Source: Paludibacteraceae bacterium (GTDB lineage: Bacteria > Bacteroidota > Bacteroidia > Bacteroidales > Paludibacteraceae). From it: a stretch of 64,000 nt of DNA. The notes below the pieces were generated by a model. That model ran no database searches. It was not told where the DNA came from and was given only the letters and a program-made list of their open reading frames with translations. Both the position numbers and the translations under genes were made by a program. Shown here in pieces: positions 7,365 to 22,578 of the stretch. The stretch spans positions 1 to 64,000 of the forward strand of contig JAFTZQ010000005.1 of NCBI GenBank assembly GCA_017464475.1, written 5' to 3'. The stretch's first letter is position 1, and each line of letters opens with the position of its first letter.

Positions 7365-8492
7365 CTAAATTAGCCAATCAAGGTAATTGTCGGGAGTGAC
7401 TATTGCTGTTTCTTTGATGTCATATGCTTTCAGAAATGACTCCGGAAGTTTGCTGGTTCCTTTCTTCGGGTTCCATTTCATTTCAAAAGCAGACATCAGC
7501 CCATCCGACTCCTCAATGTAGTCTATCTCCTGCTGCGATGTTGTGCGCCAGAAATACATGTTACAATGGTGTCCCATGTAGTGATTGCGCTTGATACGCT
7601 CCGAGATGAAGAAGTTCTCCCATAATTGCCCCATATCATTGCGCAACGATATAGGTGCAAATTGCTGTATAACCGCGTTGCGTACACCATTGTCATAGAA
7701 ATAAATCTTCTTTGCTTTCTTTAACTCATTACGCAGATTGCGACTCAGTCCGTTAAGCCGGAAGATGATGAAGCATTTCTCCAGCAAATCAATATATTTT
7801 TCTACTGTCTTGCTGTCAGTCCCTACGGTTTGCGCCAATTCGTTATAAGACACCTCCGAACCAACTTGAAAAGCCAATGCTTGCAGAAGTTTATTTAGGA
7901 CTTCCGGTTTGCGCAAACTATCCATCGTCAAAATATCTTTGTACAGATAACTGTCCGAAAGAGACAGCAAAAGACTTTGGGCATTTCCGATATTTGAGAG
8001 AACGTCCGGATAAGAGCCATAGATCAGTCGTGTTTCCAATAAGCGTTTTACATCCAAATATCCTGTAGACTTGTAAATCTCGTTGGTGGAGATTGGGAAC
8101 ATCTGATACTCAAATTTGCGCCCCGTGAGAGGCTCATTGAGCCGGTTTCGCAATTCAAACGCCGATGAGCCGGTTGCTATTATTTGCACATCGGGTATGT
8201 TATCAACAATCAGTTTGAGTGTCAAACCGATATTGTTTACTTTCTGCGCTTCATCAATAACTATGAATTTGGCACCACCCAGTAGCAATTGCAGTTCACG
8301 CAAATTGCGGTTAGTAAGCGCCTCCACTACTTGCGGCTCATCGCAGTTGAGATACTGCACTTCCGATTGTTGTTCTTGGATAATCTGTTTGAGCAGTGTT
8401 GTCTTGCCGACCTGCCGTGCACCAAGAAGGATAATCGCTTTGCCTTGGAAACATTGGCTGATGATGATTGGATGTAAATCTCGCTTAAACAT
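7365..8492 (-). CDS. AAA-family ATPase with DUF4143 domain
   Basis: 375 residues from the ATG at 8492. The longer frame is rejected because it starts upstream of the promoter at 8515. The N-terminal AAA_14-type ATPase has a Walker A motif (LLGARQVGKTTLL, about residues 19-31) and a Walker B-like FIVIDEAQKV. A sensor-like IIATGSSAF follows, and the C-terminal half is a DUF4143 domain with the typical LTGRKFEYQMFPIS and a late FYFWRTTSQQEIDYIEE nuclease-like patch (E-D-Y followed by FEMKW). Such proteins are common single-gene accessory ATPases of bacteria and archaea with no settled role. Neighbours are the miniature RhuM gene downstream and RhuM upstream. Confidence 0.9.
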   Translation of the reverse strand: MFKRDLHPIIISQCFQGKAIILLGARQVGKTTLLKQIIQEQQSEVQYLNCDEPQVVEALTNRNLRELQLLLGGAKFIVIDEAQKVNNIGLTLKLIVDNIPDVQIIATGSSAFELRNRLNEPLTGRKFEYQMFPISTNEIYKSTGYLDVKRLLETRLIYGSYPDVLSNIGNAQSLLLSLSDSYLYKDILTMDSLRKPEVLNKLLQALAFQVGSEVSYNELAQTVGTDSKTVEKYIDLLEKCFIIFRLNGLSRNLRNELKKAKKIYFYDNGVRNAVIQQFAPISLRNDMGQLWENFFISERIKRNHYMGHHCNMYFWRTTSQQEIDYIEESDGLMSAFEMKWNPKKGTSKLPESFLKAYDIKETAIVTPDNYLDWLI

Positions 8493-8810: not shown

Positions 8811-9836
8811 TTAATCTTCCGCCCCGTCAAAAGGTAAAGTCGGCAGAGTGAACTTATCAAAGTCCGATTCAAACAAGCGGTCCTGGATGACACGGTATTT
8901 CTCAAATTCCGTCTCTGCAAAAGCTTGTGCGAACTCATGCGATACCGAGCCTGCATCGGTCAGTATTCTATCGTCAGTGGCTTCCAGAATGATGTCGATA
9001 CGTTTCGCCCAATCTTCCATCGTCATCGGAATATGCCGTTTGGCCATACGTTCGGCTGCGTCCAAAACAGAGTTGACCAATTGTCCCATGTCTTCCAATT
9101 CGGCTTCGTTGAGATAGTTCTTGGCAATGCTCACATCGGGTTTGACAATCTTCCCGTGCGGAGCATTCTCCCAAGTGGTCAGCCCCATGTGCTCTTTCTC
9201 CGCATTGGCACGCGATACAATCAGTTCCGCAGCCGTCTGTCCGTGTACAGCGTAGTGCATTTTGTTCTGCACTTTGGCGAAAAACTCCCGCGTGGTGGGT
9301 GCATCGCGGTTATAGTCGATAGCCGTTGCATATATATCCGTCAGTTTCTGGTAGAAGCGTCGTTCGGAGAGCCTTATCTCACGAATTTCTGCTAACAGGT
9401 GCTCGAAGTAATCCTCGCTGATGAAAGCTCCGTTCTCCATGCGTTTCTTGTCAATGACATATCCACGGATGGCAAACTGCCTTAACACAGCCGTACACCA
9501 CTGCCTGAACTGCGTAGCACGTCTGGAGTTGACGCGGTAGCCGACAGAAATGATGGCATCGAGATTGTAATATTTGGTCTCATATTCTTGACCTGTTGAC
9601 CCCATGTGTCGGAATTTCCGACATGTGGTCTGTTCATCCAACTCGCCTGATTGATAAATGTTGCGCAAATGCTCCGTAATGGTCGAGCGTCCTTTGTCAA
9701 AAAGGGTCGCGATTGCTTCCTGTGTCGCCCAGATGGTTTCATCTTGGTAGAACACCTGCACGCCTTGCGCCTTGTCTTCGGCTTGGAAGATCAGGAACTC
9801 AGCGGTCGAGTTGCGTATTTGTAATTGTTTGGACAT
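8811..9836 (-). CDS. RhuM-family protein
   Basis: 341 residues. The first half carries the RhuM-family signature: FYQDETIWATQEAIATLFDK, a helix-turn-helix-like segment (GRSTITEHLRNIY), then YYNLDAIISVGYRVNSRRAT and FRQWCTAVLRQFAIRGYVID. The family is named after a Salmonella pathogenicity-island protein and is common on accessory DNA; its biochemical role is not established, and the N-terminus resembles phage antirepressor (KilA-N/Bro-like) proteins. The C-terminal part (about residues 190-300) is helical and contains HAVHGQTAAELIVSRANAEK. The gene has its own promoter at 9900 and a palindrome in its leader. A miniature copy and a probable remnant lie downstream, so the locus has been duplicated and deleted repeatedly. 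Confidence 0.9.
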   Translation of the reverse strand: MSKQLQIRNSTAEFLIFQAEDKAQGVQVFYQDETIWATQEAIATLFDKGRSTITEHLRNIYQSGELDEQTTCRKFRHMGSTGQEYETKYYNLDAIISVGYRVNSRRATQFRQWCTAVLRQFAIRGYVIDKKRMENGAFISEDYFEHLLAEIREIRLSERRFYQKLTDIYATAIDYNRDAPTTREFFAKVQNKMHYAVHGQTAAELIVSRANAEKEHMGLTTWENAPHGKIVKPDVSIAKNYLNEAELEDMGQLVNSVLDAAERMAKRHIPMTMEDWAKRIDIILEATDDRILTDAGSVSHEFAQAFAETEFEKYRVIQDRLFESDFDKFTLPTLPFDGAED

Positions 9837-10161: not shown

Positions 10162-10500
10162 TTATCCGTTATGCGATTGATCATACTCCTGTCCGCATAC
10201 CCTCCACAAGTACGCGCGCATGGTCTTGGCACCACCTGCCGTGTCTTTCTGCGCGAGGAAGGCTTGCTGGTCGGCAACGATCTTGGTCAGATCGGCGCGG
10301 CGTGCGGTGACCATCGCTGCCACTCCGGCAAAACGCTCACGCGCCTTCAGTTCCTTGGTGCCCGGCTGGGTGGTACGCTCGCCGTGGACGGAAGTATATT
10401 TCAGTCCGGTGGCTTTCATGTAATTGTAAATCGTGCGAAATTTCTTCGCAATCTTGCCCGAGATGTGATGAATCGGGTCTTCAAATACTACTTTTCCCAT
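10162..10500 (-). CDS. Small protein of a three-member local paralogue family (copy 1)
   Basis: 112 residues from the ATG at 10500, chosen because CTAAATCTTAATGAAATGG upstream resembles the A-rich start region of the next paralogue and because the longer frame crosses a GC-rich hairpin. It shares a layout with the genes at 10611 and 11540: an N-terminal GK motif, a basic middle, then E/R..RFA, a helical segment, and an aromatic R-A-Y-x-W near the C-terminus. I do not recognise a catalytic motif. The layout loosely recalls the N-terminal part of DUF6266 proteins, but that is a guess. It is followed at five bases by the small lipoprotein. Confidence 0.65.
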   Translation of the reverse strand: MGKVVFEDPIHHISGKIAKKFRTIYNYMKATGLKYTSVHGERTTQPGTKELKARERFAGVAAMVTARRADLTKIVADQQAFLAQKDTAGGAKTMRAYLWRVCGQEYDQSHNG

Positions 10501-10610
10501 TTCATTAAGATTTAGATTGTTTAACATTTGGTTTAGGTTTGTTCTGTGCTCGGAGCGTAAGCGCCGAGTTTCGACCATGCTGTTTACTCCTCGGCGCTAT
10601 CCCGCCGAGC

Positions 10611-10922
10611 TTACACGAGTTTCGCGTACTCCATTGCGAACATGTACCCTTGCAGCGAAGAATACTTCTTTTGGTTCGCAAACGCCTCCTCGTAGGCCGC
10701 TTTCTGCTCTGCAGTCAGAGCTTTTACAGCCGCACGAGCTTGCGTGAACTTTTGACGCACGGCTAACTCCTCAGCGGAGTACGGCTTCTTCGCCAAGTCG
10801 CGCGGCTTACAGATGCGACCGGTGCACAGGGTTTTGCCTCGTTTCTGGAAATACGTGTCCGAGTGCTCACAGATTTTACCACGGTACTCTTTTACCATGT
10901 CGATAGGTTTGTACTTTGCCAT
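10611..10922 (-). CDS. Small protein of the local paralogue family (copy 2)
   Basis: 103 residues, starting MAKYKPIDMVKEYRGKI. It shares the family layout: GK..., QKRGKTLCTGR, then a helical region with RQKFTQARAAVKALTAEQ, and the C-terminal YSSLQGYMFAMEYAK, which parallels YSTLRGYAYARLYKE of copy 3. It contains four cysteines or histidines in its first half (C18, H20, C32, C37), which could be a small metal site, though copies 1 and 3 lack them. GC-rich hairpins (CTCGGC/GCCGAG) lie in the gap to copy 1. Promoter at 11084. Function unknown. Confidence 0.7.
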   Translation of the reverse strand: MAKYKPIDMVKEYRGKICEHSDTYFQKRGKTLCTGRICKPRDLAKKPYSAEELAVRQKFTQARAAVKALTAEQKAAYEEAFANQKKYSSLQGYMFAMEYAKLV

Positions 10923-11019
10923 TTTGATTTAGGTTTAGTTGGTTAATAAATGTATGTTAATTTCCCGGCATTCTATGCCGTTTATATTCCATTTTATCTG
11001 TCGAGTAACGTGACGTAGC

Positions 11020-11092
11020 CACTCTCGCGCCACTCTCGCGCCACTCTGGTGTATAAAAACACCGCCTCTCAACTGAAAGACGGTGCAAAGAT
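11020..11092 (-). promoter_or_regulatory. Promoter and short tandem repeat upstream of paralogue copy 2
   Basis: The minus strand reads TATCTTTGC at 11092-11084, fitting TAnnTTTG; no clear TTTG box is seen at the usual distance. The leader of about 150 bases includes two to three 11-base units CACTCTCGCGC at 11020-11052. Confidence 0.55.
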
Positions 11093-11108
11093 AGTGTCAA
11101 AACCCCTT

Positions 11109-11396
11109 TTAGTGTTCCTCGGAAAGTGAAAATTTTGTCAAAAAATCGTATTTTTTCCTTTTTTTTGCTTCCTCATAGAACCATTTTAGGATTTTAATTA
11201 CTCGTTTCGGAGTGATGCCGTGCTTCGTAGCCACGACCTCTCGTGCCTCGTTCGCCGAAGCGCCTTTGTCTCGTGCCACGAAATAATCATCCACGATAGC
11301 CTGGTTCCTCACCTCAATCTCATGCCGTTTCTTCGACATCCGGTACTCATTTGGGTCTCGCACCAAATAAGGTACATCATATAAAGGATATTCCAT
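11109..11396 (-). CDS. Small basic protein with a helix-turn-helix-like segment
   Basis: 95 residues from the ATG at 11396 (MEYPLYDVPYLVRDPNEYRM); the frame extends upstream through a run of CGTTTTTC repeats and is not used. The centre reads NEAREVVATKHGITPKRVIK, which resembles a helix-turn-helix (a helix, a GIT-type turn and a second basic helix), so DNA binding is possible. The C-terminus is lysine-rich. No family is recognised. It lies within the cluster of small genes on the same strand and precedes the paralogue at 10611. Confidence 0.6.
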   Translation of the reverse strand: MEYPLYDVPYLVRDPNEYRMSKKRHEIEVRNQAIVDDYFVARDKGASANEAREVVATKHGITPKRVIKILKWFYEEAKKRKKYDFLTKFSLSEEH

Positions 11397-11539
11397 AATT
11401 GTTGACTTTTCGTTTTTCCGTTTTTCGTTTTTTTCTCTGTGCATTTTTGTCCCATCATTGGGACAACTTATTTTCGTCTGTTGTGCCGACTGTCAGTCGG
11501 CGTTTTCTTCGTCTTGTTCGCGGGTCTTTAGCCCCGCGC

Positions 11540-11863
11540 TTACATCCATTCCTTGTACAGCCGCGCATAGGCGTACCCTCGTAACGTGCTGTATTTCTTG
11601 CCGTTGAACTTATACCCGGCGGCTTTCCATTCCTTGCGCAGAAACTCCCATTGTTCGGGTGTGAGCCGCTGAATCGCTTGCGTCAGAGTGGCAAACCGCT
11701 CCCGGTGTTCGATCTCTTTGGAGCTCGGTGGCGATGTCCTTTTCCGTGGCATCTGCATCACAATCTGCTTGCCGTTCCGTACTTGGAAAATCTGGTCTCC
11801 CAACTTGCCGCGAAGCATCATTCCCACTCCGCCTGCTGTTTTTATTTGAATCACTTGTGCCAT
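11540..11863 (-). CDS. Small protein of the local paralogue family (copy 3)
   Basis: 107 residues, starting MAQVIQIKTAGGVG. The pattern RGKLGDQIFQVRNGKQIVMQ, then MPRKRTSPPSS, then EHRERFATLTQAIQ and a final KYSTLRGYAYARLYKE is the clearest of the three paralogues. The GK..G...RNGKQ...PRKRT.PPS...RERFA order is reminiscent of the N-terminal half of DUF6266 proteins of Bacteroidota, a resemblance from memory that needs a profile search. The gene starts six bases after the stop of the gene at 11870, so these two are probably co-transcribed. Downstream, GC-rich hairpins (GCCGACTG...AGTCGGC and CGCGGG...CCCGCG) occupy 11480-11540. Confidence 0.7.
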   Translation of the reverse strand: MAQVIQIKTAGGVGMMLRGKLGDQIFQVRNGKQIVMQMPRKRTSPPSSKEIEHRERFATLTQAIQRLTPEQWEFLRKEWKAAGYKFNGKKYSTLRGYAYARLYKEWM

Positions 11864-11869
11864 AGCATT

Positions 11870-12193
11870 TTAGTTTTTAACGTAAATAACTTGCTGTCCT
11901 GTCGGATTCGCCATTTTCCATCCGTCTCGCTCCAGTGTCGTGCCATATTTGGCGTAATAAGCGGCGTATGTTAACACTTGCTGTTTGGGCTGCCTGACCC
12001 GAAAATCCTGAATGAAGAAATACGGGTTGCGTCCTTTGTATGCGCCGTGTTTGCGTAACCAAGCGATGATGGCTTGTTGTTTGTCCGGCGGACAGGCATC
12101 CCATTCAATTTGGGTAGCGTCTCTGCGGTTCTCAAACTGCTCGTCCGGCTTAAACAACGCCCAATAGGTTTCAAAGTCCGTTTTTAAGTCCAT
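11870..12193 (-). CDS. Small protein of unknown function, first gene of a pair
   Basis: 107 residues from the ATG at 12193 (MDLKTDFETYWALFKPDEQF). The longer frame crosses tandem CAGTCC/GGGGGA repeats and is not used. The protein is rich in aromatic residues (YWALF, NPYFFIQDF, YAAYYAKYG) and charged residues, with no signal peptide, and looks like a small helical cytosolic protein. WLRKHG and YFFIQDFRV are local features that might help a search. Six bases separate it from the paralogue at 11540. No family recognised. Confidence 0.6.
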   Translation of the reverse strand: MDLKTDFETYWALFKPDEQFENRRDATQIEWDACPPDKQQAIIAWLRKHGAYKGRNPYFFIQDFRVRQPKQQVLTYAAYYAKYGTTLERDGWKMANPTGQQVIYVKN

Positions 12194-12359
12194 AATAAAG
12201 ATTTTTAATTGTCTCGTCCCCTGTATGTCTGTCCCTAAAGTCCCTACAGTCCTTAAACGCCTTTGGGGGATTATAGGGGGACTATACAAGGACAGACATA
12301 CAAGAGGACTGACATTTTAATTTTCTTTTTGTCAAACTTTTTCTTTTATCGGCTTTCTT

Positions 12360-12767
12360 TTATCCTACGAACGCCAGCCGGAACCCGTGCTTGATACTCT
12401 CGCTTTCGGGATGGGCTTTCTCGAGCTTCTCCGCCGTGCGTTTGAGGTCAGCACGCATGTCCTTCAGTTGCGCCGCCATCTGCTCCTGCAGCGCCAGTTG
12501 CTGCATGTAGATAGCGTGGTTGGGGTCGGAGGTCACGGCAGGGTTGGTGTTCTTCTCCCACGTGAACGATTTGGGTCGGCTGACGATGATCTTAAAGCCG
12601 TGGTACTCGATCGTTCCGGTGAAATTGGACGGTTTGCCCTGCTCTTTGATGAGCGCCTGCACAGCGGCTTCCATCTGCGGACGGAGCGCTTTCAGCGTTG
12701 CTTCGGATTCGTTACATGCTACTTGCGCAGCGAAAAATTGGTCAATAACTTCAAAATTGGTTGTCAT
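12360..12767 (-). CDS. Coiled-coil protein of unknown function
   Basis: 135 residues from the ATG at 12767 (MTTNFEVIDQFFAAQVACNE). Two long helices, residues about 15-42 and 90-120 (QLALQEQMAAQLKDMRADLK), flank a short beta-like part with TGTIEYHGFKIIVSRPKSFTW, a layout resembling small phage or plasmid proteins that pair an antiparallel coiled coil with a beta hairpin. No catalytic motif is visible. It is the first gene after the promoter at 12886 and heads the cluster of seven small genes. Its role is unknown. Confidence 0.65.
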   Translation of the reverse strand: MTTNFEVIDQFFAAQVACNESEATLKALRPQMEAAVQALIKEQGKPSNFTGTIEYHGFKIIVSRPKSFTWEKNTNPAVTSDPNHAIYMQQLALQEQMAAQLKDMRADLKRTAEKLEKAHPESESIKHGFRLAFVG

Positions 12768-12885
12768 AATGTTAAAAGTTTTGTGCGTGGGCTTGTATGC
12801 GAGTGGCCACTCATTGCACGTGCGGACACACAAACTTTCGCGGTTACTAAATAATGTTCACGCGTCTCTCTGATTGAAAGACGCT

Positions 12886-13023: not shown

Positions 13024-13060
13024 TAAAAAAATCCTCATCGGGTTGCCCCAATGAGGATTT
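13024..13060 (-). terminator. Rho-independent terminator of the NurA/HerA-type operon
   Basis: AAATCCTCAT (13029-13038) pairs with ATGAGGATTT (13051-13060), extended by a G-rich/C-rich inner stem. On the minus strand a run of T follows. It lies 27 bases after the last stop codon of the five-gene operon. Confidence 0.85.
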
Positions 13061-13086: not shown

Positions 13087-14103
13087 TTACATTTGAGACA
13101 TGAATATCTCACTTCTGTAATCAGATAGTTTTCTTAATAGACCTTTGGCGATTGCATTCATTCTAACGACCTTATCCCTTTCCAAATTAAGATTTTTGTA
13201 ATTGGCCCACATATCTTTTATCTGTGTAACATTGCCTTTGCTTCGCCATAATGAGCGCTCATGAGATATTGACTTTTGCCAATTACGCTTGTACACATTC
13301 ATTTCTTCAGCAGAATCAAATTGGAATAGCCATGGGAACCAGCTTATCATCTGCTCGATAAAAGTAGAATCTTTAAATTTCCGTGATATTACAATCCCAG
13401 CTTCATCTATAGCCTTGAAGATATAGTACCATTCATTTTTTGTATTGGGATTTATTTGCTCTTTTTCTGGCTGAACTAACTTTCCGTTATCTTCTCCCAT
13501 GTTTATACTTGCAGCAATAATATCACGCAACTTTGTAAGTTTACTATCTGTATCAAATATTCTATAATTGAAGATAATATTGTCTAGTTCTTCGCCGACA
13601 ACACTTTCTTCCTCTTGTTGTTTCTTGCTTTTTTGTATTATGATTTCACCATTAACTATCACGATATTGTCTGCACTGATAGTTGCAGACTTCTGACGCG
13701 CTTCCCAATCAAAAGCTTGAGCTAATAAATGGTCAATAGTGTTCGTTAAACAGTGATAGATAAAGAAATCCTCTAATTCAGCAGAATCCAACTCGCCTTC
13801 ATTAACGACAATTAGTTTTTGAAAGAACTTTATCACATCAAAACTGCCTAACTGGTCATCAAAACATTTCTCTAATATGTAGAATTGAGAGTTCGCTTGA
13901 AAGCCTTTAAGACATTTCTCTCGCTCATCACGGAGAAAGGATTTGAGTGCATCTATATCTCTGTCAGCGACATGGAGTCTTATGCTTGAAAGAAGTTTGG
14001 ATCTTTCATTAGCCCATCTTTTAGAGGATACAAATTTAGCTAATTCAGCATGAAATATCACCTCATAATCAGTTGAAATATTTGCTAAAGAGTTAATCTC
14101 CAT
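13087..14103 (-). CDS. Unknown protein, fifth gene of the NurA/HerA-type operon
   Basis: 338 residues from the ATG at 14103; five further codons upstream are possible. It overlaps the end of the radical SAM gene by 11 bases, so it belongs to the same operon. The first 170 residues are helical (SKRWANERSKLLSSIRLHVA, FFIYHCLTNTIDHLLAQAFD). A linker rich in K, Q and E follows (KKQQEEESVVGEE). The C-terminal part has NEWYYIFKAIDEAGIV and MISWFPWLFQFD, which loosely recall C-terminal helical domains of RteC-like Bacteroidota proteins. No nuclease or ATPase motif is seen. It could be a structural or effector component; I cannot assign a function. Confidence 0.75.
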   Translation of the reverse strand: MEINSLANISTDYEVIFHAELAKFVSSKRWANERSKLLSSIRLHVADRDIDALKSFLRDEREKCLKGFQANSQFYILEKCFDDQLGSFDVIKFFQKLIVVNEGELDSAELEDFFIYHCLTNTIDHLLAQAFDWEARQKSATISADNIVIVNGEIIIQKSKKQQEEESVVGEELDNIIFNYRIFDTDSKLTKLRDIIAASINMGEDNGKLVQPEKEQINPNTKNEWYYIFKAIDEAGIVISRKFKDSTFIEQMISWFPWLFQFDSAEEMNVYKRNWQKSISHERSLWRSKGNVTQIKDMWANYKNLNLERDKVVRMNAIAKGLLRKLSDYRSEIFMSQM

Positions 14104-16006
14104 TCTCTTTTTGATCAAATTTCTGTTTTAATTTATATAGTTCCGAATTATGATTAGCTATATCTCCTCGATAATTTTTGTAAAAATTCAAAATATGGCG
14201 AAACTTTTCATTAGAAGTTAATTCTTCAATATGATTAAAGTCATTATGGAAGATAATAGGATATAACTCATCTCGTTCGGAATCCGTTAGTTCTGCCATC
14301 GCTTTACGCCATTGATCAGTATATCCAAGATGCTCAAAGAAGAAACGGAATAACAGGAAAGTCTCTGGCATAATTAGCAGTTCCATGAATTCTTCTTCGT
14401 TTTTGCCGAACGCTTTCTCAAAAAACGATATACCGCGTCCGACTTTTCCTTTTGTAGCATTGAGAATAGCTTGAACCGCTCGGATATATTTTCGATTCCA
14501 ATTTTTTCCGATGTAATCGCGGTCATGACTATGTTCATCACGGATGGGATGATACTTCATGGGAAATGAATAAACATTGACATCCAATTCTTCACACAAA
14601 TCCACATTAACTCGTAAGCGATAATATAACTCTTGCGGGGTATCATTAAAGTTATATAAAAGGTAGTTAGAAAAATCTCTAATACCGTGCTGAGCACTCA
14701 TACGTATAGCCTCCATATATGAGTGTTCTGTTTTAATATTATCAAAGGCAATACGTAACGGACGGATAGGAATTTGAGCTAACATATTAACACGTTCCTC
14801 ATTAAAGAGACGAGCATCAACACCTTGATTGAAATCAACTATTCTTTGACGTCCTCTTTGCCGTTTATATACTTTGTCAAAATATTCAGCGAAATCTTTA
14901 TATGTGCGGATTAGGTTTTCTTTTGTACAAGTTTCGAGATGGAGAAGTCCATTTTCTTCGCGCAGACTATATATTTTGGTACGTGTCTCCTCGTTAAAAA
15001 TCCGTTTGTCATTAAGTTCACGCAATAGTTTGAATGTCTTTCTTATATATGCTCGGTCATTTAATCCCAATCTGAGATTACGAATAGCAAGATTATATTG
15101 GTTAGGCTCTATATAAGTGGAGTTTTTCCCAAACCCACATTTCTTAATATCTTCGATTATCTCAGGTAAGTTATCTGATGCCAAGACATTGTTATCCATT
15201 AACAACAGATTACGCTTGTCTCCATATAGCCTTCGTGTGCGCGAAATACGTTCGTACAAAGGTAAATAAGGCTGATAGGTGGGTTCAAGAGTCGGAACAG
15301 CACAAAATGGGCAATGACGAATACATCCACGAGTAGAATAACTATAGAACGCGTCGCGGTCAGGATATTCATATTCAATCTCATCCAATATAGAATAATC
15401 CAACGGCAATTCATCAATAATGTATGGATTATCTTCCTCTATATCGACATAGGGTGTATGCAGTGTCCCAACATGTGGCTTAATGCCTGTAGCCTCCTCT
15501 ATTTCTTTGGGTTGGATAGATGCCAAGATTCCACCGACTTGTATATGATTTATATCCTTGGCAAGGAGCTTGGCAAACTCAATTGTTTCAATAGTTATAT
15601 CCCAATAGAATGTGAATAAGGTTGTAACAAATACCCAATCCCATTTAGGATGTTTTATGTACTCCTTATTATGGTAATACTTTTTGTAATATTCAATCCA
15701 TGGGGTTAGTAATAATTCGAATTGGGAGTCATTTAATCTTATCGCTTCTAAATCCGCTTTGCGCCGATATTTGATATAGTCTGCTATACGGTGAGCTCTA
15801 AGTCTCCAATTGATAGAGGCATCTAATTGGGTAAATTTATCAACGCAATCATCCGTTATTTGTTGGATTAGAAAATCATTCAAATCTCCTTTATAAAAGA
15901 CAACATTATCGCCACGCAATCGGAAATAGGTGGCAATTTTCATCAATCCTATAGGTGGAAATTTATTTTTATAATTGGGCTCTATAAGTAAGATATTTCT
16001 ATTCAT
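14093..16006 (-). CDS. Radical SAM protein, fourth gene of the operon
   Basis: 637 residues. The N-terminus (ILLIEPNYKNKFPPIGLMKI) resembles the cobalamin-binding-like Rossmann domain found ahead of many radical SAM domains, though the cobalamin-ligand motif DxHxxG is not visible. The 4Fe-4S site is C228-x3-C232-x2-C235 within RGCIRHCPFC, preceded by YSYS as in MiaB/Elp3-like enzymes. Later segments (LLLMDNNVLAS, FNQGVDARLF, RIAFDN) fit the barrel. The substrate is unknown. It is not a viperin-type enzyme by its cluster sequence. The start overlaps the upstream stop as ATGA, and the end overlaps the next gene, so it is fixed in this operon. Confidence 0.9.
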   Translation of the reverse strand: MNRNILLIEPNYKNKFPPIGLMKIATYFRLRGDNVVFYKGDLNDFLIQQITDDCVDKFTQLDASINWRLRAHRIADYIKYRRKADLEAIRLNDSQFELLLTPWIEYYKKYYHNKEYIKHPKWDWVFVTTLFTFYWDITIETIEFAKLLAKDINHIQVGGILASIQPKEIEEATGIKPHVGTLHTPYVDIEEDNPYIIDELPLDYSILDEIEYEYPDRDAFYSYSTRGCIRHCPFCAVPTLEPTYQPYLPLYERISRTRRLYGDKRNLLLMDNNVLASDNLPEIIEDIKKCGFGKNSTYIEPNQYNLAIRNLRLGLNDRAYIRKTFKLLRELNDKRIFNEETRTKIYSLREENGLLHLETCTKENLIRTYKDFAEYFDKVYKRQRGRQRIVDFNQGVDARLFNEERVNMLAQIPIRPLRIAFDNIKTEHSYMEAIRMSAQHGIRDFSNYLLYNFNDTPQELYYRLRVNVDLCEELDVNVYSFPMKYHPIRDEHSHDRDYIGKNWNRKYIRAVQAILNATKGKVGRGISFFEKAFGKNEEEFMELLIMPETFLLFRFFFEHLGYTDQWRKAMAELTDSERDELYPIIFHNDFNHIEELTSNEKFRHILNFYKNYRGDIANHNSELYKLKQKFDQKENGD

Positions 16007-17577
16007 CTTGTAATGTCTGCTTCAATTTTCGAAATGAGTGCCTCACATTGTTTTTCGTCAGGAATTGCGCTTGTGATAGAGGCATAAATATCTCGAATGA
16101 TTTTCTTCTCTGCTCGGTTGAATTTGGAATAGAGGGGGCTATCTGTTCGATAAATCGGCCTCGTGGTGGGAGCATTTGGCTGTTCCGGGACGTTAGACGC
16201 TGTCGTCGTTGAGACCGAAGGCATATGGCTTAATATGTTGCCAAGTGGAGTATCTGGCAGCAAATGTTTCTGGCTCATAGCAGCAAGCGCTCTCTTGGCT
16301 TGCTCTGATTTTTGTCGATATTCTTCATATTGCCTCTCTAAGTTCTCTTTTTCTTTTTTACTCGTATACCCTCCTGATTTTTCCTTCTGTTGGATTTTAG
16401 TGTGTAACTCTTCTGCTTTACTGATTGTTTTCGCGTTAGATCTATATCGTTGTACATTGTAGCACAATTCTTTTAAGTCGAGGAAATCCTGTTTGATTAA
16501 TCGCTCAAACTCTTCACATTCGGGACTCTCGCTAAAATAATCTCTTCGTGAATTAGGTATTAATCCTTTACTTATTGCGTGTATTTCGCCAAAAAAATAG
16601 AACGAGAAACGCTGATCTTCAGTTTTGGTGAAGAATTTCTTGCATATTTCCTCATCACCAATTTGAATGTTTTCTTTTCTGAGTCGGATGCCGCGTGCAA
16701 TATTTTTGGGCTTCATTTGTCCATTGAGTTGGGACAATGAATACCACCCCCAATATATAATATCACCATTTTTATCTTTTTTCAGCAGGAATTCTACACC
16801 AATAATATCATCTACTTTCTTTTTCCCTCCATTGAGATCTTCGTAGATGTAGTTTGTGTATGGTTTGTATATTTGATCTTGGTTAATATAAATATTATAT
16901 GTATCTAGTGAAAGCTCATTATCACGCATGAACTGATGTATTTTGCTACGATAAAGGAACCTAGAATCAATATCTACCGGAGCGACCATAGATAAGTATT
17001 CTCTAACATTGTCTGCATCCAGCAATTCTTTTGAAGTAACTCCTTCTAGAATAACACGGAAGTAGTGTGCATCAGCATTTTCTTGATATTCTCTGGTTTC
17101 TGTAACACGTCGAAGGACATCCACCGCTTCTTCTTTTGTAGAGCGGTCGTTTATTATTCTCTTAAGTAAGTCCGCATCCCAAGTCATAACGCACTTACAA
17201 TCCTCACCATAATATGATGATTCAAAGCGCAGTTTTGAACAATATCCTAAGCCTCCCAAACGACCAATGCCACGGAATCCTTTATCTTCACCTCTCGTCT
17301 TTGTAGAATGAGCAATATTACGGAGAATAGGAATGAATTTGTCTCGTTCTATGCCAGTAGCATTGTCCTCTATGATTATAGAATGTTCATCGGAATTAAT
17401 GAGAATATGAATTTCTTCTTCATTAGAAGACAGCAACCCACTTCTTCTTGCTTTGTCAATTTGGTCTGCCGAATTTTGGATGTACTCGCGAAAAATAAAG
17501 CGGCTATCTTCATACATTCCTAATGTCAAAGACTCTATTACGTCTTTGCCAATCTGAGGAGAATTATCTTGCATCAT
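16003..17577 (-). CDS. GHKL (Hsp90-like) ATPase, third gene of the operon
   Basis: 524 residues. The N-terminal 200 residues have the Bergerat ATP fold: N box E31-YIQNSAD38, G1 box D71-NATG and G2 box G100-FRGIGRLGGLG. The arrangement is closest to HtpG/Hsp90-like ATPases (REYIQNSADQ; IEDNATGI), but the length and C-terminal part differ from HtpG. A middle beta domain includes WGWYSLSQLNGQMK and GIRLRKENIQIGDE, as in Hsp90/MORC-type proteins. A coiled coil (about residues 395-445, KEKENLERQYEEYRQ) and a proline/threonine-rich stretch end the protein. Its start overlaps the HerA-like stop as ATGA. ATP-driven dimer clamping is the inferred activity; its partner proteins are presumably the operon products. 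Confidence 0.9.
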   Translation of the reverse strand: MMQDNSPQIGKDVIESLTLGMYEDSRFIFREYIQNSADQIDKARRSGLLSSNEEEIHILINSDEHSIIIEDNATGIERDKFIPILRNIAHSTKTRGEDKGFRGIGRLGGLGYCSKLRFESSYYGEDCKCVMTWDADLLKRIINDRSTKEEAVDVLRRVTETREYQENADAHYFRVILEGVTSKELLDADNVREYLSMVAPVDIDSRFLYRSKIHQFMRDNELSLDTYNIYINQDQIYKPYTNYIYEDLNGGKKKVDDIIGVEFLLKKDKNGDIIYWGWYSLSQLNGQMKPKNIARGIRLRKENIQIGDEEICKKFFTKTEDQRFSFYFFGEIHAISKGLIPNSRRDYFSESPECEEFERLIKQDFLDLKELCYNVQRYRSNAKTISKAEELHTKIQQKEKSGGYTSKKEKENLERQYEEYRQKSEQAKRALAAMSQKHLLPDTPLGNILSHMPSVSTTTASNVPEQPNAPTTRPIYRTDSPLYSKFNRAEKKIIRDIYASITSAIPDEKQCEALISKIEADITR

Positions 17578-19259
17578 GATTCGTAATATTTATAAATGGG
17601 TTTGGGAAATTTAATATTCAACAGTGAGCGGAATACTGGATTCTGAATAATATATTCACCTTGTTTTTGTCTGGTCAACATCGTCTTGTAAACAGATGGT
17701 ACAAAGCGGAAATCCTCCTTGGTAATCTCAATAGCATTCGTGCGTCCAAAAGCCTGTGTCGCGCAATTGCCTTTTACTCTTTTATGAATATCGCTTACAA
17801 ATTGTTCTGCTCCAAAAAGGACAATACCAAGCGAGCGTCCGCGTTCTGTTATATCCAATAACTGTCGTAGAATTGGTGAAGACTTTGGAACATCGTTTGA
17901 TGCATATTTATTGAGCTCGTCAATGAAAATAATTATTCTATCGGGAATATCTTCATCTGGACGGTTCTGTGTGTCCCCTAATTTAAGATTATATACGGCA
18001 CGCATGACATCACCAAATACAAATCCTTGTGATTCCTCATCCATTTTTGCTACATCGACAACCATTACATCATTTTTCTTTATTTGAGCTATCTCGTCGC
18101 GGAGGCGCACGCTATTTCCGCCAAGTTTCTCCGTGAACATTTGTCTGCACTTTTGGAAACTTTTATTGAATAGACGATAAAATTTGCGCCAACTCATTAC
18201 AGATATTTCTTTGCCTGCTTTTGACGCAGTATCTGTTTGCGTTTGTTGATATAACGCCTGCTTGAACTCTTCCCAACTTTCAACTCCCTTGAAATTACCT
18301 CCGTTGGATATGATGAAATTAATAATGCTTTCTATTGTGTCATTAGGATCATCCACGTTGGCGAACAGCAAATCGAGGCTTTCTTTATCTTCATCGTTCT
18401 CAAAAAGATACTTGTATTGAAATGCCTTACCAGCTTCAATTCGATCTCTTAATACTTGTTCCTTTTCGTACGTATAAGAAATAGCATCTTTAGAATAGGG
18501 ATAATAGTATTTCACTTGTTGGAAGGGTTTCATTTCCATTCCAAGTTTTTCGTATATAGGTTTGATTTCTTCTAATTCATTTACCCTTTCATTCAACTGG
18601 TCTATACGCAGCAAATCAGTTCCCTTAACATTCATCATAATAAAGGCTACGGATTCATCTTTATGCTTGCTGATATTATCTTGGATGGCTTTCATGAGAA
18701 ACATTGCATAACTTGTCTTTGAAGCCAAGCCAGAAATACCACTAATATTCAAGTGGGCACCTTCGGGACCTATTAAGAAATGTGAATTGAAATATACTGG
18801 GAGCACTTGTTTATTCTCACCATCATACATTTCCATGTAGCCCGCTGGTAACGGATTTTTAACATCATTGAGGCCTAATGCTTCCATAATCTCCTCTCTT
18901 GAGGCTAAAAATACCTTGCGTCCTTCTTGAACAGGAATATACACGTTCTTGTCATTGCCAACAACCTTGCATTTAACATAGTTCATGCTTATGCGCTCAG
19001 TATACGCCAATGCCTCAACATCTCCAAAATCACTTGATATGTAGCCGGCTAATGCACTCGGAGAATCAGTCATGTGTGAAATTTCTTCTACAACTCCATA
19101 AGTTTTAGAATTTTCCACATGTTCAACGACGACAACATCAAAAGGCTTTAACTTAAGATCTTTTCGGGTCCAAAATGTAAATTCTTCAATAGTAGACGGT
19201 TGTTTTTCCGTCGCAATGATTTTTCCGATAGTATCCATATTTGCAGATTTAGAAAACAT
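17574..19259 (-). CDS. HerA-like hexameric ATPase, second gene of the operon
   Basis: 561 residues from the first ATG, which overlaps the NurA-like gene by 11 bases; an ATG at 19238 gives a 554-residue form. The N-terminus (IGKIIATEKQPSTIEEFTFW ... TYGVVEEI) is a HAS-barrel. A modified Walker A lies at residues 174-183 (GISGLASKTS, with A-S in place of the usual G before Lys) and a Walker B follows around residue 450 (IIIFIDELNKYA). The C-terminal part (GIVLFGAEQFVSDIHKR, GNCATQAFGRTN) matches the sensor/arginine-finger region of HerA/FtsK-type DNA translocases. It would form a ring that moves DNA, with the adjacent NurA-like protein as nuclease partner, as in archaeal HerA-NurA. The altered Walker A deserves note. 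Confidence 0.88.
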   Translation of the reverse strand: MFSKSANMDTIGKIIATEKQPSTIEEFTFWTRKDLKLKPFDVVVVEHVENSKTYGVVEEISHMTDSPSALAGYISSDFGDVEALAYTERISMNYVKCKVVGNDKNVYIPVQEGRKVFLASREEIMEALGLNDVKNPLPAGYMEMYDGENKQVLPVYFNSHFLIGPEGAHLNISGISGLASKTSYAMFLMKAIQDNISKHKDESVAFIMMNVKGTDLLRIDQLNERVNELEEIKPIYEKLGMEMKPFQQVKYYYPYSKDAISYTYEKEQVLRDRIEAGKAFQYKYLFENDEDKESLDLLFANVDDPNDTIESIINFIISNGGNFKGVESWEEFKQALYQQTQTDTASKAGKEISVMSWRKFYRLFNKSFQKCRQMFTEKLGGNSVRLRDEIAQIKKNDVMVVDVAKMDEESQGFVFGDVMRAVYNLKLGDTQNRPDEDIPDRIIIFIDELNKYASNDVPKSSPILRQLLDITERGRSLGIVLFGAEQFVSDIHKRVKGNCATQAFGRTNAIEITKEDFRFVPSVYKTMLTRQKQGEYIIQNPVFRSLLNIKFPKPIYKYYES

Positions 19260-20421
19260 TCATAAAATAATAATCGCTGGCGAACCGACTTTTACAGTAG
19301 CATTCGGTCATATATACTGGATAGAGATGGTTTGCCCATCGCGCATCAGAACCATAACATACAGGATTACGTTCATTGATGATACTCGCAGAAATAGTAT
19401 CAATTTCATCGGAAGATAATCCATATTCTGCCTCCTGTCCGGTCATTAGCATCTTTTCTACTTTAACAATTCCCGAATAGGGTGTATCAGTATGAGTGAT
19501 GTCATGTAATCGGATGTACCATATTGCAAATGTAACATTTCCCCATTCTTCTCCCGGTTTCCAGAGGAAAGCAGGTGTTCGATGATAAAGAGGAAGACGT
19601 GCAATAGCTCCAGCATTGCTTTGCCCTCTGTTATCCCGCATGAGATTAGGATTAAATTTTTTTGAAACACCAACAACGTGGCGATAATTACTGCGTATCC
19701 GTGCAAGTTCCTTGTAATCACCAGTTTTCATTGGCTTATATTGAATAGAACCGTCTTTTATCAAATAGCTATCTTGTGTAAGTAGATGGCGACTCATCAA
19801 CTCTGCAACAATACGCTTTTCGCAATCTATCATTTCATCCTGTATGCGTGCTATTCCCTTATTTTCTAACGTTTCTTTGCCTTCTAGTTTTGTTTGATAA
19901 TATAGGACTTTCTCTAAATGAATCTTTTCGGCATTGAGTGCTGCATTTTCTTTTATTTTATCAGTTAGGTTACGAAAGAACACATTATGGTCAATTCCTT
20001 CTCCATTTGCTTTAACAGGTAGACAAAGTACAGAATAGGATGTTTCAATGACCTTCTTAAAATCAAGGAAATGCCCACTCTCATCGCTCTCTCTACCGCA
20101 GCATGCAACAGAAATTTGCCCTCCAATTATAGGATAAACTTTATTGTCATATTCAATATCATCTAACTTGTACACTTTGCGAGAACCATCTAAAAAGAAT
20201 TTAAATTTTGACGGCTGATGCAAGCAGTACTTAGCTCGTTGGCTCAAATCTCGTGGTTTTGGATCTTTTATATCCTCTGCATATTCTTTCAGATTGATGT
20301 ATGTATCTTCTTGCGCCTCGTATTCAATACCGGGGATTCCATCATCAGAGAAACTGTGTTTGTATGATTTAAAGCAGTTCCCCTCGGTTTTTTCACTAAT
20401 GAAATCTAAAATTCTTCCCAT
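19249..20421 (-). CDS. NurA-like nuclease, first gene of the operon
   Basis: 390 residues. FLDGSRKVYK at residues 76-85 matches the NurA motif in which the aspartate of DGSxR binds catalytic metal. A C-terminal segment, WANHLYPVYMTECYCKSRF, fits the NurA pattern of an aromatic/proline motif ahead of a final helix. HRTPAFLWKPGEEWGNVTFA may correspond to the central NurA region. Identification rests on these motifs and on the immediate HerA-like neighbour, the usual partner. It would cut DNA ends during translocation. There is no signal peptide. The operon promoter is at 20486 and an 18-base palindrome covers the start of transcription. Confidence 0.7.
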   Translation of the reverse strand: MGRILDFISEKTEGNCFKSYKHSFSDDGIPGIEYEAQEDTYINLKEYAEDIKDPKPRDLSQRAKYCLHQPSKFKFFLDGSRKVYKLDDIEYDNKVYPIIGGQISVACCGRESDESGHFLDFKKVIETSYSVLCLPVKANGEGIDHNVFFRNLTDKIKENAALNAEKIHLEKVLYYQTKLEGKETLENKGIARIQDEMIDCEKRIVAELMSRHLLTQDSYLIKDGSIQYKPMKTGDYKELARIRSNYRHVVGVSKKFNPNLMRDNRGQSNAGAIARLPLYHRTPAFLWKPGEEWGNVTFAIWYIRLHDITHTDTPYSGIVKVEKMLMTGQEAEYGLSSDEIDTISASIINERNPVCYGSDARWANHLYPVYMTECYCKSRFASDYYFMNVF

Positions 20422-20469
20422 AATTAATCATTATTTTTTATGGTTATTTCTTGTCTCGGTTTGCGCCCC

Positions 20470-20487
20470 GCACGCAAAATTGCGTGC
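20470..20487. promoter_or_regulatory. Palindromic operator-like site at the operon transcription start
   Basis: GCACGCAAAATTGCGTGC has perfect 8-base arms around AA. It touches the -7 box and covers the expected start site, so a bound protein would block transcription. Its RNA form would be a 5'-end hairpin. Confidence 0.6.
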
Positions 20488-20518
20488 AAAGGTACAACTT
20501 TTTTCTGAGATATGCAAG
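20486..20518 (-). promoter_or_regulatory. Promoter of the NurA/HerA-type operon
   Basis: The minus strand reads TACCTTTGC (20494-20486); a CTTG in place of TTTG lies at 20518-20515, 20 bases upstream. The leader to the ATG at 20421 is about 60 bases. Confidence 0.75.
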
Positions 20519-20574: not shown

Positions 20575-20946
20575 TCATCGGTCGGTGGATATCACAAGAT
20601 GAGACCATGACAATTTTGACACCAGTGGTGACACAATTTGAAAATCGGGAAATAGCTGGGCAAATTGCATCATTCGACGGATGGTTCTCTCTTCAAATCC
20701 CTTCGTTCCGTACTCCTCTTGTAATTGCGTCGCAACCTGCGACACAATTTGTTTTCCATATTCAGCACGCTCGTTCTTCAGCACATCGCGATTGATGCGG
20801 TCACCGATATGCCAATACATCGCTGTCAACTCATAATTGGCTGTAGCTGCTACGTGTGAACGCGCGGAATCGATTATCTTCCGCAAATCACCGAGTAGTT
20901 CCGCGGAAACTAATTCGGAAGGATTGAGTTTTTCTATATCTGCCAT
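20575..20946 (-). pseudogene. Truncated DUF1016 (YhcG-type) protein, N-terminal domain only
   Basis: 123 residues. The sequence from DLRKIIDSARSHVAATANYE through YWHIGDRINRDVLKNERAEY and IRRMMQFAQLFPDF to LSWSHL is the N-terminal domain of DUF1016 proteins. The full-length family members are about 340 residues and end in a PD-(D/E)XK nuclease domain. Here the frame ends right after LSWSHL with VISTDR and a stop, at a block rich in CCGACCGATGA units that also occurs at the ClC gene end (22545-22575). The nuclease half is absent, so this is probably a broken gene, though the N-terminal domain alone could still bind partners. It lies between the five-gene operon and the HTH ORF. Confidence 0.8.
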
Positions 20947-21300: not shown

Positions 21301-22362
21301 TCACTCGTACACCGCCGCAGAAATTCTCGACCTTGGGCATAGGAATTTTTCAATTATCTCCCAATGGCCGGTTTTGTCAGAGCCAACCCATTGAATCAGG
21401 CGTTTTTCTTGTAAAGCAACAACATCCCGTTGGATGGTTTTTCTATTGACTCCCAATCTTTCGGAAAGATATTTCGTGTTTACTGCGACATTTACTGCGA
21501 CATTTTTTAGAATTTCTATTATAACTCGCTGTCTATCAGTTAAATCATCTGCGACATCTTGAAGGACACCTTGAGGGACACCTGTCTCTTGACTTGCTAC
21601 ATAAGCATCTATTTCCGCTTGCAAGTTGATGTTATGCAAACGCATCATAACAGCAGGTAAGATTGACTCGTCTTGCTTGTCACGTGTGTCGTTGAGGGCT
21701 TGGATATATTCGGCTTTCTGCTCTTTGAGCACCTTAACCGGAATAAGCCCGAACTCCCATTGTAGCATGTTCATTACAAGGCGTGACATGCGGCCGTTAC
21801 CATCCGCCCAAGGATGGATGCTTACCAAGCGGTAGTGTGCCACAAACGAAAGACGATAGGCGGCAAGGATATCATTTTTTGGCAACGAGAAACGTTCGTT
21901 ATTGAGCCATCGGCAGAAATCCGCTAAGGCCTGCGGCACTTTCTCGTGCGCCAGATAACTGCGTCCGCCGAAACCTGCCGTCACATTCACTTTACGCAAT
22001 TCTCCTTCTGCGGCAGAGAACGAACCCAACGGCGTGTTATACGTGCTTCCTGTGTTTCTCATTACGATAGCGGACAAGCGACATAGCACATCCACACTAT
22101 AGGCAGTATGACGCTCGGCTAATCGTTGCGCCTCCTCGTACGCAGCCTTGAGATCAAGGTTCATCATCTGCTCTTGGAGTGTGCGGCCGGGTGCCGTGAT
22201 GCCTTCATCGAAGAGCAGTTGGTTCTCTATCTCTGTGACGGTAGAACCCTCTATGGCGGTAGAGTGCGTAATGATGGAATACAAGTAGAATTTCTTGTAG
22301 TCAATCTGTTCCTCAATGCCCAATTGACGGTAGCGTTCTATGGTTTGCAATAAGTCTGCCAT
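21301..22362 (-). CDS. Fic domain protein with C-terminal winged helix
   Basis: 353 residues from the ATG at 22362; the longer frame starts upstream of the promoter. The Fic motif is complete: H183-PWADGNGRMSR, so the enzyme should transfer a nucleotide (usually AMP) to a hydroxyl of a target protein. An N-terminal inhibitory motif S34-TAIEG fits the class II arrangement, in which a glutamate blocks ATP until released. The FAVAHYRLVSIHP-like helix precedes the motif. The C-terminal 70 residues (LTDRQRVIIEILKN ... RKTIQRDVVALQEKRL) form a winged helix, as in bacterial Fic proteins that bind their own operator. A palindrome over the promoter supports autoregulation. The next ORF downstream copies this HTH. 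Confidence 0.93.
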   Translation of the reverse strand: MADLLQTIERYRQLGIEEQIDYKKFYLYSIITHSTAIEGSTVTEIENQLLFDEGITAPGRTLQEQMMNLDLKAAYEEAQRLAERHTAYSVDVLCRLSAIVMRNTGSTYNTPLGSFSAAEGELRKVNVTAGFGGRSYLAHEKVPQALADFCRWLNNERFSLPKNDILAAYRLSFVAHYRLVSIHPWADGNGRMSRLVMNMLQWEFGLIPVKVLKEQKAEYIQALNDTRDKQDESILPAVMMRLHNINLQAEIDAYVASQETGVPQGVLQDVADDLTDRQRVIIEILKNVAVNVAVNTKYLSERLGVNRKTIQRDVVALQEKRLIQWVGSDKTGHWEIIEKFLCPRSRISAAVYE

Positions 22363-22396
22363 ATCTATCCTTTTTGCTCTGTTTTCTATTCGAAAC

Positions 22397-22438
22397 AAAT
22401 TTGCATGCAAATTTACAACTTTTTTCAGACATGTGCAA
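22397..22438 (-). promoter_or_regulatory. Fic promoter overlapped by an 18-bp perfect palindrome
   Basis: The minus strand has TAAATTTGC (22415-22407) and a TTG-containing box at 22438-22435. AAATTTGCATGCAAATTT (22397-22414) is a perfect 18-base palindrome laid over the -7 box and start. The Fic winged helix is the obvious candidate to bind it. Confidence 0.7.
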
Positions 22439-22578
22439 GTTTTATGGCGGAAATTAAATTTGGTAACGTGGTTTTGGGGCGTTTGGGGACAAAAAATCAC
22501 AAAAAATGAGCAACTTTTTCAGTCGCTCATCTCTCGGTTGTGTCTCGGTCATCGGTCGGTCATCGGTCGGTGGAGGAT

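Follow-up and report, generated by a model that had tools for sequence, protein, structure and literature searches.

Within a 64,000-nucleotide stretch of a Paludibacteraceae bacterium (Bacteroidota; GenBank assembly GCA_017464475.1, contig JAFTZQ010000005.1, positions 1 to 64,000; hereafter the window), five intact open reading frames (ORFs) on the minus strand form an operon at 13087-20421, encoding successively a NurA-like nuclease, a HerA-like ring translocase, an Hsp90-like GHKL ATPase, a radical S-adenosylmethionine (radical SAM, rSAM) enzyme and an accessory protein, U5 (Table 1). The first four of these genes are a conserved unit, which recurs in the same order across phyla beyond what chance would produce. 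Successive genes overlap by 11, 4, 4 and 11 bases, both 4-base overlaps having the sequence ATGA, and re-measurement of the ORFs thus bears out an earlier sequence-only reading of this DNA, which had described five same-strand genes overlapping by 4 to 11 bases, with ATGA at two junctions. That reading had also assigned the operon one promoter and one strong terminator. The terminator part stands, in that a terminator-like stem of 14 pairs followed by a T run at 13060-13029 is the longest in a terminator scan (which listed 11 sites overall, against 8.6 +/- 2.8 in shuffled sequences); the promoter part comes down to a putative site read by eye, where TTG and TACCTTTG, separated by 20 nucleotides, presumably fit the Bacteroidetes promoter consensus. 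A sigma-70 scan did no better than shuffles (36 sites, against 31.5 +/- 6.8), and the TTG/TACCTTTG site was not among its output. The operon is also distinct in composition: segments lying fully within it have a GC content of 0.35-0.38, as compared to approximately 0.43-0.56 for most segments outside.

The gene identities proposed for the first four proteins proved right, with those of NurA and rSAM resting on structure models. The AlphaFold2 (AF2) model of the NurA-like protein, with a predicted local distance difference test (pLDDT) score of 85.8, matches Deinococcus radiodurans NurA (7f6d_G) at 6.8e-11, and the fold search also retrieved Thermotoga maritima TM1739 and Sulfolobus solfataricus NurA; a sequence profile matches 7f6d_H with an E value of 0.0057, while the Pfam NurA family (PF09376) does not match the window protein. 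Invariant residues D78, E201, D223, E322 and H365 are those to which we would assign catalytic roles. The HerA profile matches D. radiodurans HerA at 5.9e-54, with an identical P-loop variant in both proteins, and displays a P-loop region GISGLASKT (K181, T182) and a Walker B region IDELNKYA (D447, E448), with invariant positions taken from 8 rows; a HAS-barrel match (1.8e-4) falls under the Pfam cut-off. By homology and predicted fold, HerA and NurA are thus a motor-nuclease pair, predicted to act as a nuclease at DNA ends. The GHKL protein carries residues E31, N35, D71, G75, G103 and G105, invariant in 13 rows. In the case of the rSAM protein, a search of PDB sequences with the family gave no convincing match (RimO at 0.29), so that a fold search was needed; in addition to the CxxxCxxC motif, the structure model displays an N-terminal Rossmann domain resembling the cobalamin-binding kind, and Pfam scores for B12-binding (0.0018) and Radical_SAM (2.6e-5) are below the cut-off. 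By modelled fold, the enzyme is of class B (cobalamin type), for which cobalamin binding and SAM cleavage are predicted. The alignments behind the two structure models had 46 and 44 rows. Searches of Pfam, NCBIfam, PADLOC and PHROGs gave no match for U5.

Table 1. Positions of the operon, its putative signals and neighbouring genes in the window
Feature	Position	Strand	Size	Basis or remark
NurA-like nuclease	19249..20421	-	390 aa	AF2 model fold match and profile match
HerA-like ring translocase	17574..19259	-	561 aa	Profile to D. radiodurans HerA
Hsp90-like GHKL ATPase	16003..17577	-	524 aa	HATPase_c_3 3.3e-10; profile to HtpG 6.8e-15
Cobalamin-type (class B) rSAM enzyme	14093..16006	-	637 aa	CxxxCxxC at 228-235
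U5, accessory protein	13087..14103	-	338 aa from ATG	Upstream TTG start listed at 14118
Putative Bacteroidetes-type promoter	20487..20517	-		TTG (20517-20515), 20 nt, TACCTTTG (20494-20487); read by eye
Terminator-like stem	13029..13060	-	14 pairs + T run	Terminator scan
DUF1016 N-terminal fragment	20575..20946	-	123 aa	PF17761 2.1e-31; just upstream of operon
Fic/DOC family gene	21301..22500	-		PF02661 7.9e-15
RhuM gene	8811..9836	-		PF13310 2.5e-104
AAA_14/DUF4143 gene	7365..8492	-		PF13635 3.6e-42
ClC gene	22579			Next past the Fic/DUF1016_N side of the island
Obg gene	24359			Named by eye
Rhomboid-like gene	26717			Named by eye

A conserved four-gene core

Relatives of the operon were collected by a scan of genome collections that yielded at least 589 pattern stretches and at least 538 confirmed rSAM relatives, the best 80 of which were retained. 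All four core families were present in 68 of these 80 loci; ten others end prematurely at contig edges, and the remaining two (L097 and L116) carry GHKL and rSAM genes with another partner gene, HerA and NurA not being found within 10 kb upstream. The exact contiguous order NurA-HerA-GHKL-rSAM occurs in 56 of the 80, while the other 12 full sets harbor an insertion, a duplication or a split frame, and a 4-base overlap of GHKL and rSAM was measured at 36 of 70 junctions. By record title, 57 full sets belong to Bacteroidota and 11 to seven other groups (two each from Melainabacteria, Bacillota, Lentisphaerota and Aminicenantes, and one each from Ignavibacteriota, Deferribacterota and Kiritimatiellota); these non-Bacteroidota records are mostly metagenome-assembled genomes, among which single placements may be binning errors. 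The sequence-only reading had named the recurrence of the five-gene order in unrelated genomes as what would support it, and such recurrence holds for four genes, U5 being clade-specific (8/80).

Since the 80 loci are the most similar relatives, samples of 295 genomes at the order level and 395 at the phylum level, which are less biased, were also searched. At the order level, ten genomes, the window's own included, have an rSAM gene at E<1e-100: six carry all four families (some genes being split or interrupted), three are cut by contig ends, and one (G057) has GHKL and rSAM only. At the phylum level, six genomes, again including that of the window, have one at E<=1e-30, four of the others carrying the set and one (G572) a remnant only. 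In one carrier, G454, NurA lies outside the fetched stretch and is visible at the same coordinates in L094, so that the phylum-level sample overlaps the 80 loci. The reciprocal search retrieved strong HerA genes (E<1e-100) in eight of the 295 order-level genomes, seven of which have the rSAM gene, while the eighth (G274) ends at a contig edge after NurA-HerA. Furthermore, the four proteins agree in their pairwise distances, with r values of 0.66-0.95, as compared to a permutation maximum of 0.18, in the 65 of 84 loci where all four proteins exceed set lengths. A single HerA copy was present in each of 20 carriers tested. Cultured carriers of the operon include Prevotella ruminicola KHT3 (L073), Dysgonomonas macrotermitis DSM 27370 (L104) and, with the NsnB-like variant, Chryseobacterium defluvii (L118). 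Split, interrupted or remnant core genes were also observed, in L045 and L105 (GHKL), L123 and L035 (HerA), and L247 (rSAM), as would be expected if an accessory system were being lost.

Exchange of partners and viral relatives

The gene that follows rSAM varies between loci. Relatives of U5 stand after rSAM in 8 of the 80 loci, and elsewhere there is a different gene or none, 36 loci lacking any same-strand gene within 250 bp downstream (contig ends included). U5 was considered as a core component and rejected, given its presence in those eight loci and the fact that none of the libraries used names it. In 18 loci the gene after rSAM encodes one of 18 large proteins that group together by single linkage; an alpha-CTD-like domain is present in the L035 member, and that of L072 has no Pfam match; additional downstream proteins match the C-terminal half of DarG (L046, with which L047 clusters), Schlafen/AlbA (L030, with which L076 clusters), RelA/SpoT (L115) and a UvrB-like protein (L109).

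Variation also reaches the core. In seven loci (L037, L094, L101, L113, L117, L118 and L122), a pair of genes resembling NsnB and, weakly, NsnC precedes GHKL-rSAM, and in several cases is flanked by a GHKL gene on either side; the AAA_15 genes of these loci fall into one cluster, and in the member tested (L094) this gene matches NsnB at 3.3e-65 and the second gene matches NsnC at only 0.002. These pairs stand next to GHKL as if parts of Menshen had been exchanged. GHKL-rSAM pairs that lack HerA-NurA include loci with DpdB-like, PIN or SNF2 partners. On three alphaproteobacterial plasmids (L027, L028 and L029) the order is DGQHR (DpdB-like)-rSAM-GHKL without HerA-NurA, and a PIN-domain gene paired with a second GHKL gene lies near the cassette in L027 and L028, two of the three loci viewed; this plasmid cassette may be a mobile system of its own. 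The DpdB-like proteins beside rSAM and GHKL were recognized at 4.7e-15 (L121) and 2.1e-7 (L027), and such a gene accompanies all four core genes in L121 and, as judged by clustering, in L115. In a separate observation, plasmids of Streptomyces, Sphaerospermopsis and Chlorohelix (L234, L235 and L236) encode a distantly related HerA, behind which lie SbcD and SbcC-like genes; two of these plasmids also carry ImmA/IrrE genes close by, and L236 has a gene for a TIR-domain protein. Such loci could represent a second HerA-linked mobile cassette.

The window rSAM matches the phage family PHROG 9298 at 6.5e-43. Among 80 loci from viral collections, three have all four families, 13 have rSAM and GHKL only (adjacent in 12, the GHKL of L161 being weak and on the opposite strand), 60 have rSAM alone, that is, with no GHKL, HerA or NurA gene within the stretch examined, and four are without a called rSAM ORF. 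In Marinitoga virus 1, rSAM adjoins HerA-NurA, and the GHKL profile found no match in the 16.8 kb examined. The neighbors of PHROG 9298 family genes in viral contigs L142-L203 (196 proteins, clustered by single linkage) include a cluster of 15, most of those listed being of approximately 200 aa and the L168 member being a DNA methylase, and another of nine, whose L144 member is terminase-like. Ten neighbors that were scanned comprise one terminase-like protein, one gpA terminase, one DNA methylase, one other rSAM protein and six unnamed proteins, and gave no clear answer regarding the substrate. A Thermus phage rSAM-DUF483 module, whose rSAM may belong to a different family from the present one, has been linked to deazapurine loci (PMC11437467).

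Possible roles in defence

The surroundings of the operon in the window are those of an island. RhuM, DUF4143 and Fic genes, which the sequence-only reading had named as its neighbors, are all recognized by Pfam, and the DUF1016 gene it had listed is present as an N-terminal fragment. In the one same-genus genome sampled (G245), relatives of the rhomboid-like, Obg and ClC genes are collinear with those of the window; beyond ClC the DNA bears no relation to the island, and rSAM is absent, which indicates that the island is missing there. On the left side, where the boundary was sought with the gene at 4412-7009, the same-genus genome gave no close match. Six small unnamed ORFs lie at 10162-12833, between RhuM and U5; the five that were scanned have no Pfam matches, and those at 10611-10922 and 11540-11863 share, by eye, a C-terminal KKYS(S/T)LxGY-like motif.

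Elsewhere, in contig 76 of genome G499 (L246 with L248), a full cassette together with AbiEi sits between the HsdM/HsdS and HsdR genes of a type I restriction-modification (R-M) locus. Defence and mobile markers, sought by phmmer with ten queries, occur in the flanks of 21 of the 80 loci (894 kb), as compared to 2 of 17 controls (272 kb). A Pfam count over 108 flanking proteins (of 132 chosen, from 14 of 17 loci) gave three integrases and two each of Y2 transposase, DUF1016, DUF4143 and RhuM, while 108 control proteins (from 15 of 17 regions) gave one RhuM; this count is weak, being drawn from the top 25 families (of 119 and 171). HerA-SIR2 and HerA-DUF4297 have been reported as antiviral complexes, and archaeal HerA-NurA has been argued to be possibly antiviral rather than resecting (both as covered in passages of PMC12977600), a proposal that fits an immune reading here. 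Taken together, the patchy and single-copy distribution, R-M nesting, core pairs on plasmids, copies in virus collections and exchange with NsnB-like and DpdB-like genes suggest a role in defence, and the operon is probably a defence system.

How such a system might work can be outlined from homology. HerA and NurA would be the motor and nuclease that bind and degrade duplex DNA; the Hsp90-like GHKL protein could be a dimeric clamp or switch powered by ATP, and a chemical modification could be introduced by the cobalamin-type rSAM. GHKL and rSAM would form a marking or licensing arm through which HerA-NurA could distinguish DNA to be spared from DNA to be attacked, with variable downstream genes such as U5 as presumed exchangeable accessories. 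That GHKL and rSAM are one functional arm is suggested by the persistence of the pair without HerA-NurA and in the company of other DNA-acting proteins; in addition, a GHKL domain has been proposed, in the part of PMC12137116 that concerns it, to gate the nuclease of Shedu-type VcSduA, offering a parallel for switch-like control in the present operon. That the four proteins form a mobile anti-invader system, in which one arm degrades and the other marks, most likely on DNA, stands at about even chances. Its least certain step is DNA marking by the rSAM, which is tentative and rather less than probable, DNA being weakly indicated as target by the DpdB-like partners, with the role of DpdB as stated in PMC12839542. 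In its fullest form, which is speculative, the rSAM, loaded by the Hsp90-like clamp, would write an as yet unnamed mark on host DNA and HerA-NurA would degrade unmarked DNA, providing a new form of self/non-self discrimination; GHKL-rSAM would be a portable writer with HerA-NurA, SNF2, PIN nuclease or DpdB-like ATPase as readers, and the stand-alone rSAM of phages could mimic the mark.

A number of observations weigh against this proposal. The enrichment of markers in the flanks is only modest, roughly threefold per base, and phmmer detected HsdM in one of the 17 controls and not in the flanks of any of the 80 loci. No sequence-specificity subunit was found for the system, the fold of the rSAM gives no readable substrate, and the DpdB-like gene, which is the main link to DNA marking, occurs in only two of the 68 full sets. 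The contigs from virus collections may be prophage or host DNA, and Deinococcus HerA-NurA is described, in the same passages of PMC12977600, as an end-resection and recombination enzyme.

A rival idea is that of a mobile module for DNA end-processing or repair, in which HerA-NurA would resect ends and GHKL and rSAM would mend a lesion, to the benefit of mobile elements and not of immunity. The nearest relatives of solved structure are the Deinococcus pair, SbcD and SbcC-like genes accompany the more remote HerA proteins of three plasmids, and one copy (L086) comes after primase/helicase-type genes; however, the sporadic, single-copy distribution, R-M nesting in one genome and NsnB-like exchange fit immunity better, and this role appears improbable. 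An anti-phage function in which the rSAM acts instead on tRNA, a nucleotide or a protein, generating a signal, an antiviral product or a modified trigger of HerA-NurA, seems unlikely in view of the DNA-linked partners of the variants (DpdB-like, SNF2 and HerA-NurA); in addition, extra cysteines of the MiaB type are not among the conserved columns of the rSAM. It could also be argued that HerA-NurA and GHKL-rSAM are two independent cargo pairs that merely lie side by side, as the GHKL-rSAM pair is seen with HerA-NurA missing on alphaproteobacterial plasmids, in viral contigs and in L097 and L116, and HerA-NurA of Marinitoga virus 1 adjoins rSAM with GHKL not found by profile; yet most relatives share one order with short gaps or overlaps, including the frequent 4-base junction of GHKL and rSAM, and every strong HerA copy in the order-level genomes is either accompanied by an rSAM gene in the same genome or truncated by a contig end, all of which renders such independence very improbable.

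If the proposed marking and degradation by the four proteins were true, the operon would represent a widespread immune system, sufficiently common in Bacteroidota to occur in approximately 1-3% of the genomes sampled, in which a motor-nuclease is joined to radical chemistry and which may bring to light a hitherto unseen DNA modification. The PHROG 9298 rSAM genes of phages would gain a testable purpose in counter-defence, and bacterial HerA-NurA an immune role like that suspected in archaea.

Relation to known systems

The sequence-only reading knew of no described system with this gene set, and searches of PADLOC and open papers agree. In PADLOC the sole match was that of HerA to mad8 (1.9e-9), the other four proteins having none at E 0.1, while a published description of the four-gene set was not found in open PMC papers, a search outside which lay supplements, preprints and most subscription papers. 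The set is not described in the searched text of PMC4158269, PMC10250203, PMC13092281 and PMC13391042 (supplements lying outside the search). HerA/FtsK capture systems have been described by Rakesh et al. 2024 (PMC10853773), whose main text makes no mention of NurA, Hsp90 or GHKL and refers to radical SAM only where DndC is discussed.

The closest parallels for the degrading pair are the HerA-NurA proteins of D. radiodurans (PDB 7f6d, 7wrw and 7wrx) and of archaea, with the Deinococcus matches and unusual P-loop given above; unlike these, the window pair is joined by GHKL and rSAM genes and is sporadic in Bacteroidota. As in SIR2-HerA and HerA-DUF4297, a HerA-family ring ATPase adjoins the gene of a nuclease or effector, but here the partner is NurA, two further conserved enzymes are present, and none of the five proteins matches SIR2 or DUF4297. 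Menshen (NsnABC) is related through the AAA_15/NsnB-like gene of seven relatives, and the Dpd 7-deazaguanine system through the DpdB-like proteins beside rSAM and GHKL in other relatives, although the five window proteins match neither Nsn nor Dpd proteins. PHROG 9298 matches the window rSAM, but stands alone in most viral loci. Against this background, the four-gene system is conserved and built from known parts, and is apparently an undescribed variant of the HerA-nuclease systems, one that possibly embodies a new principle of marking and restriction.

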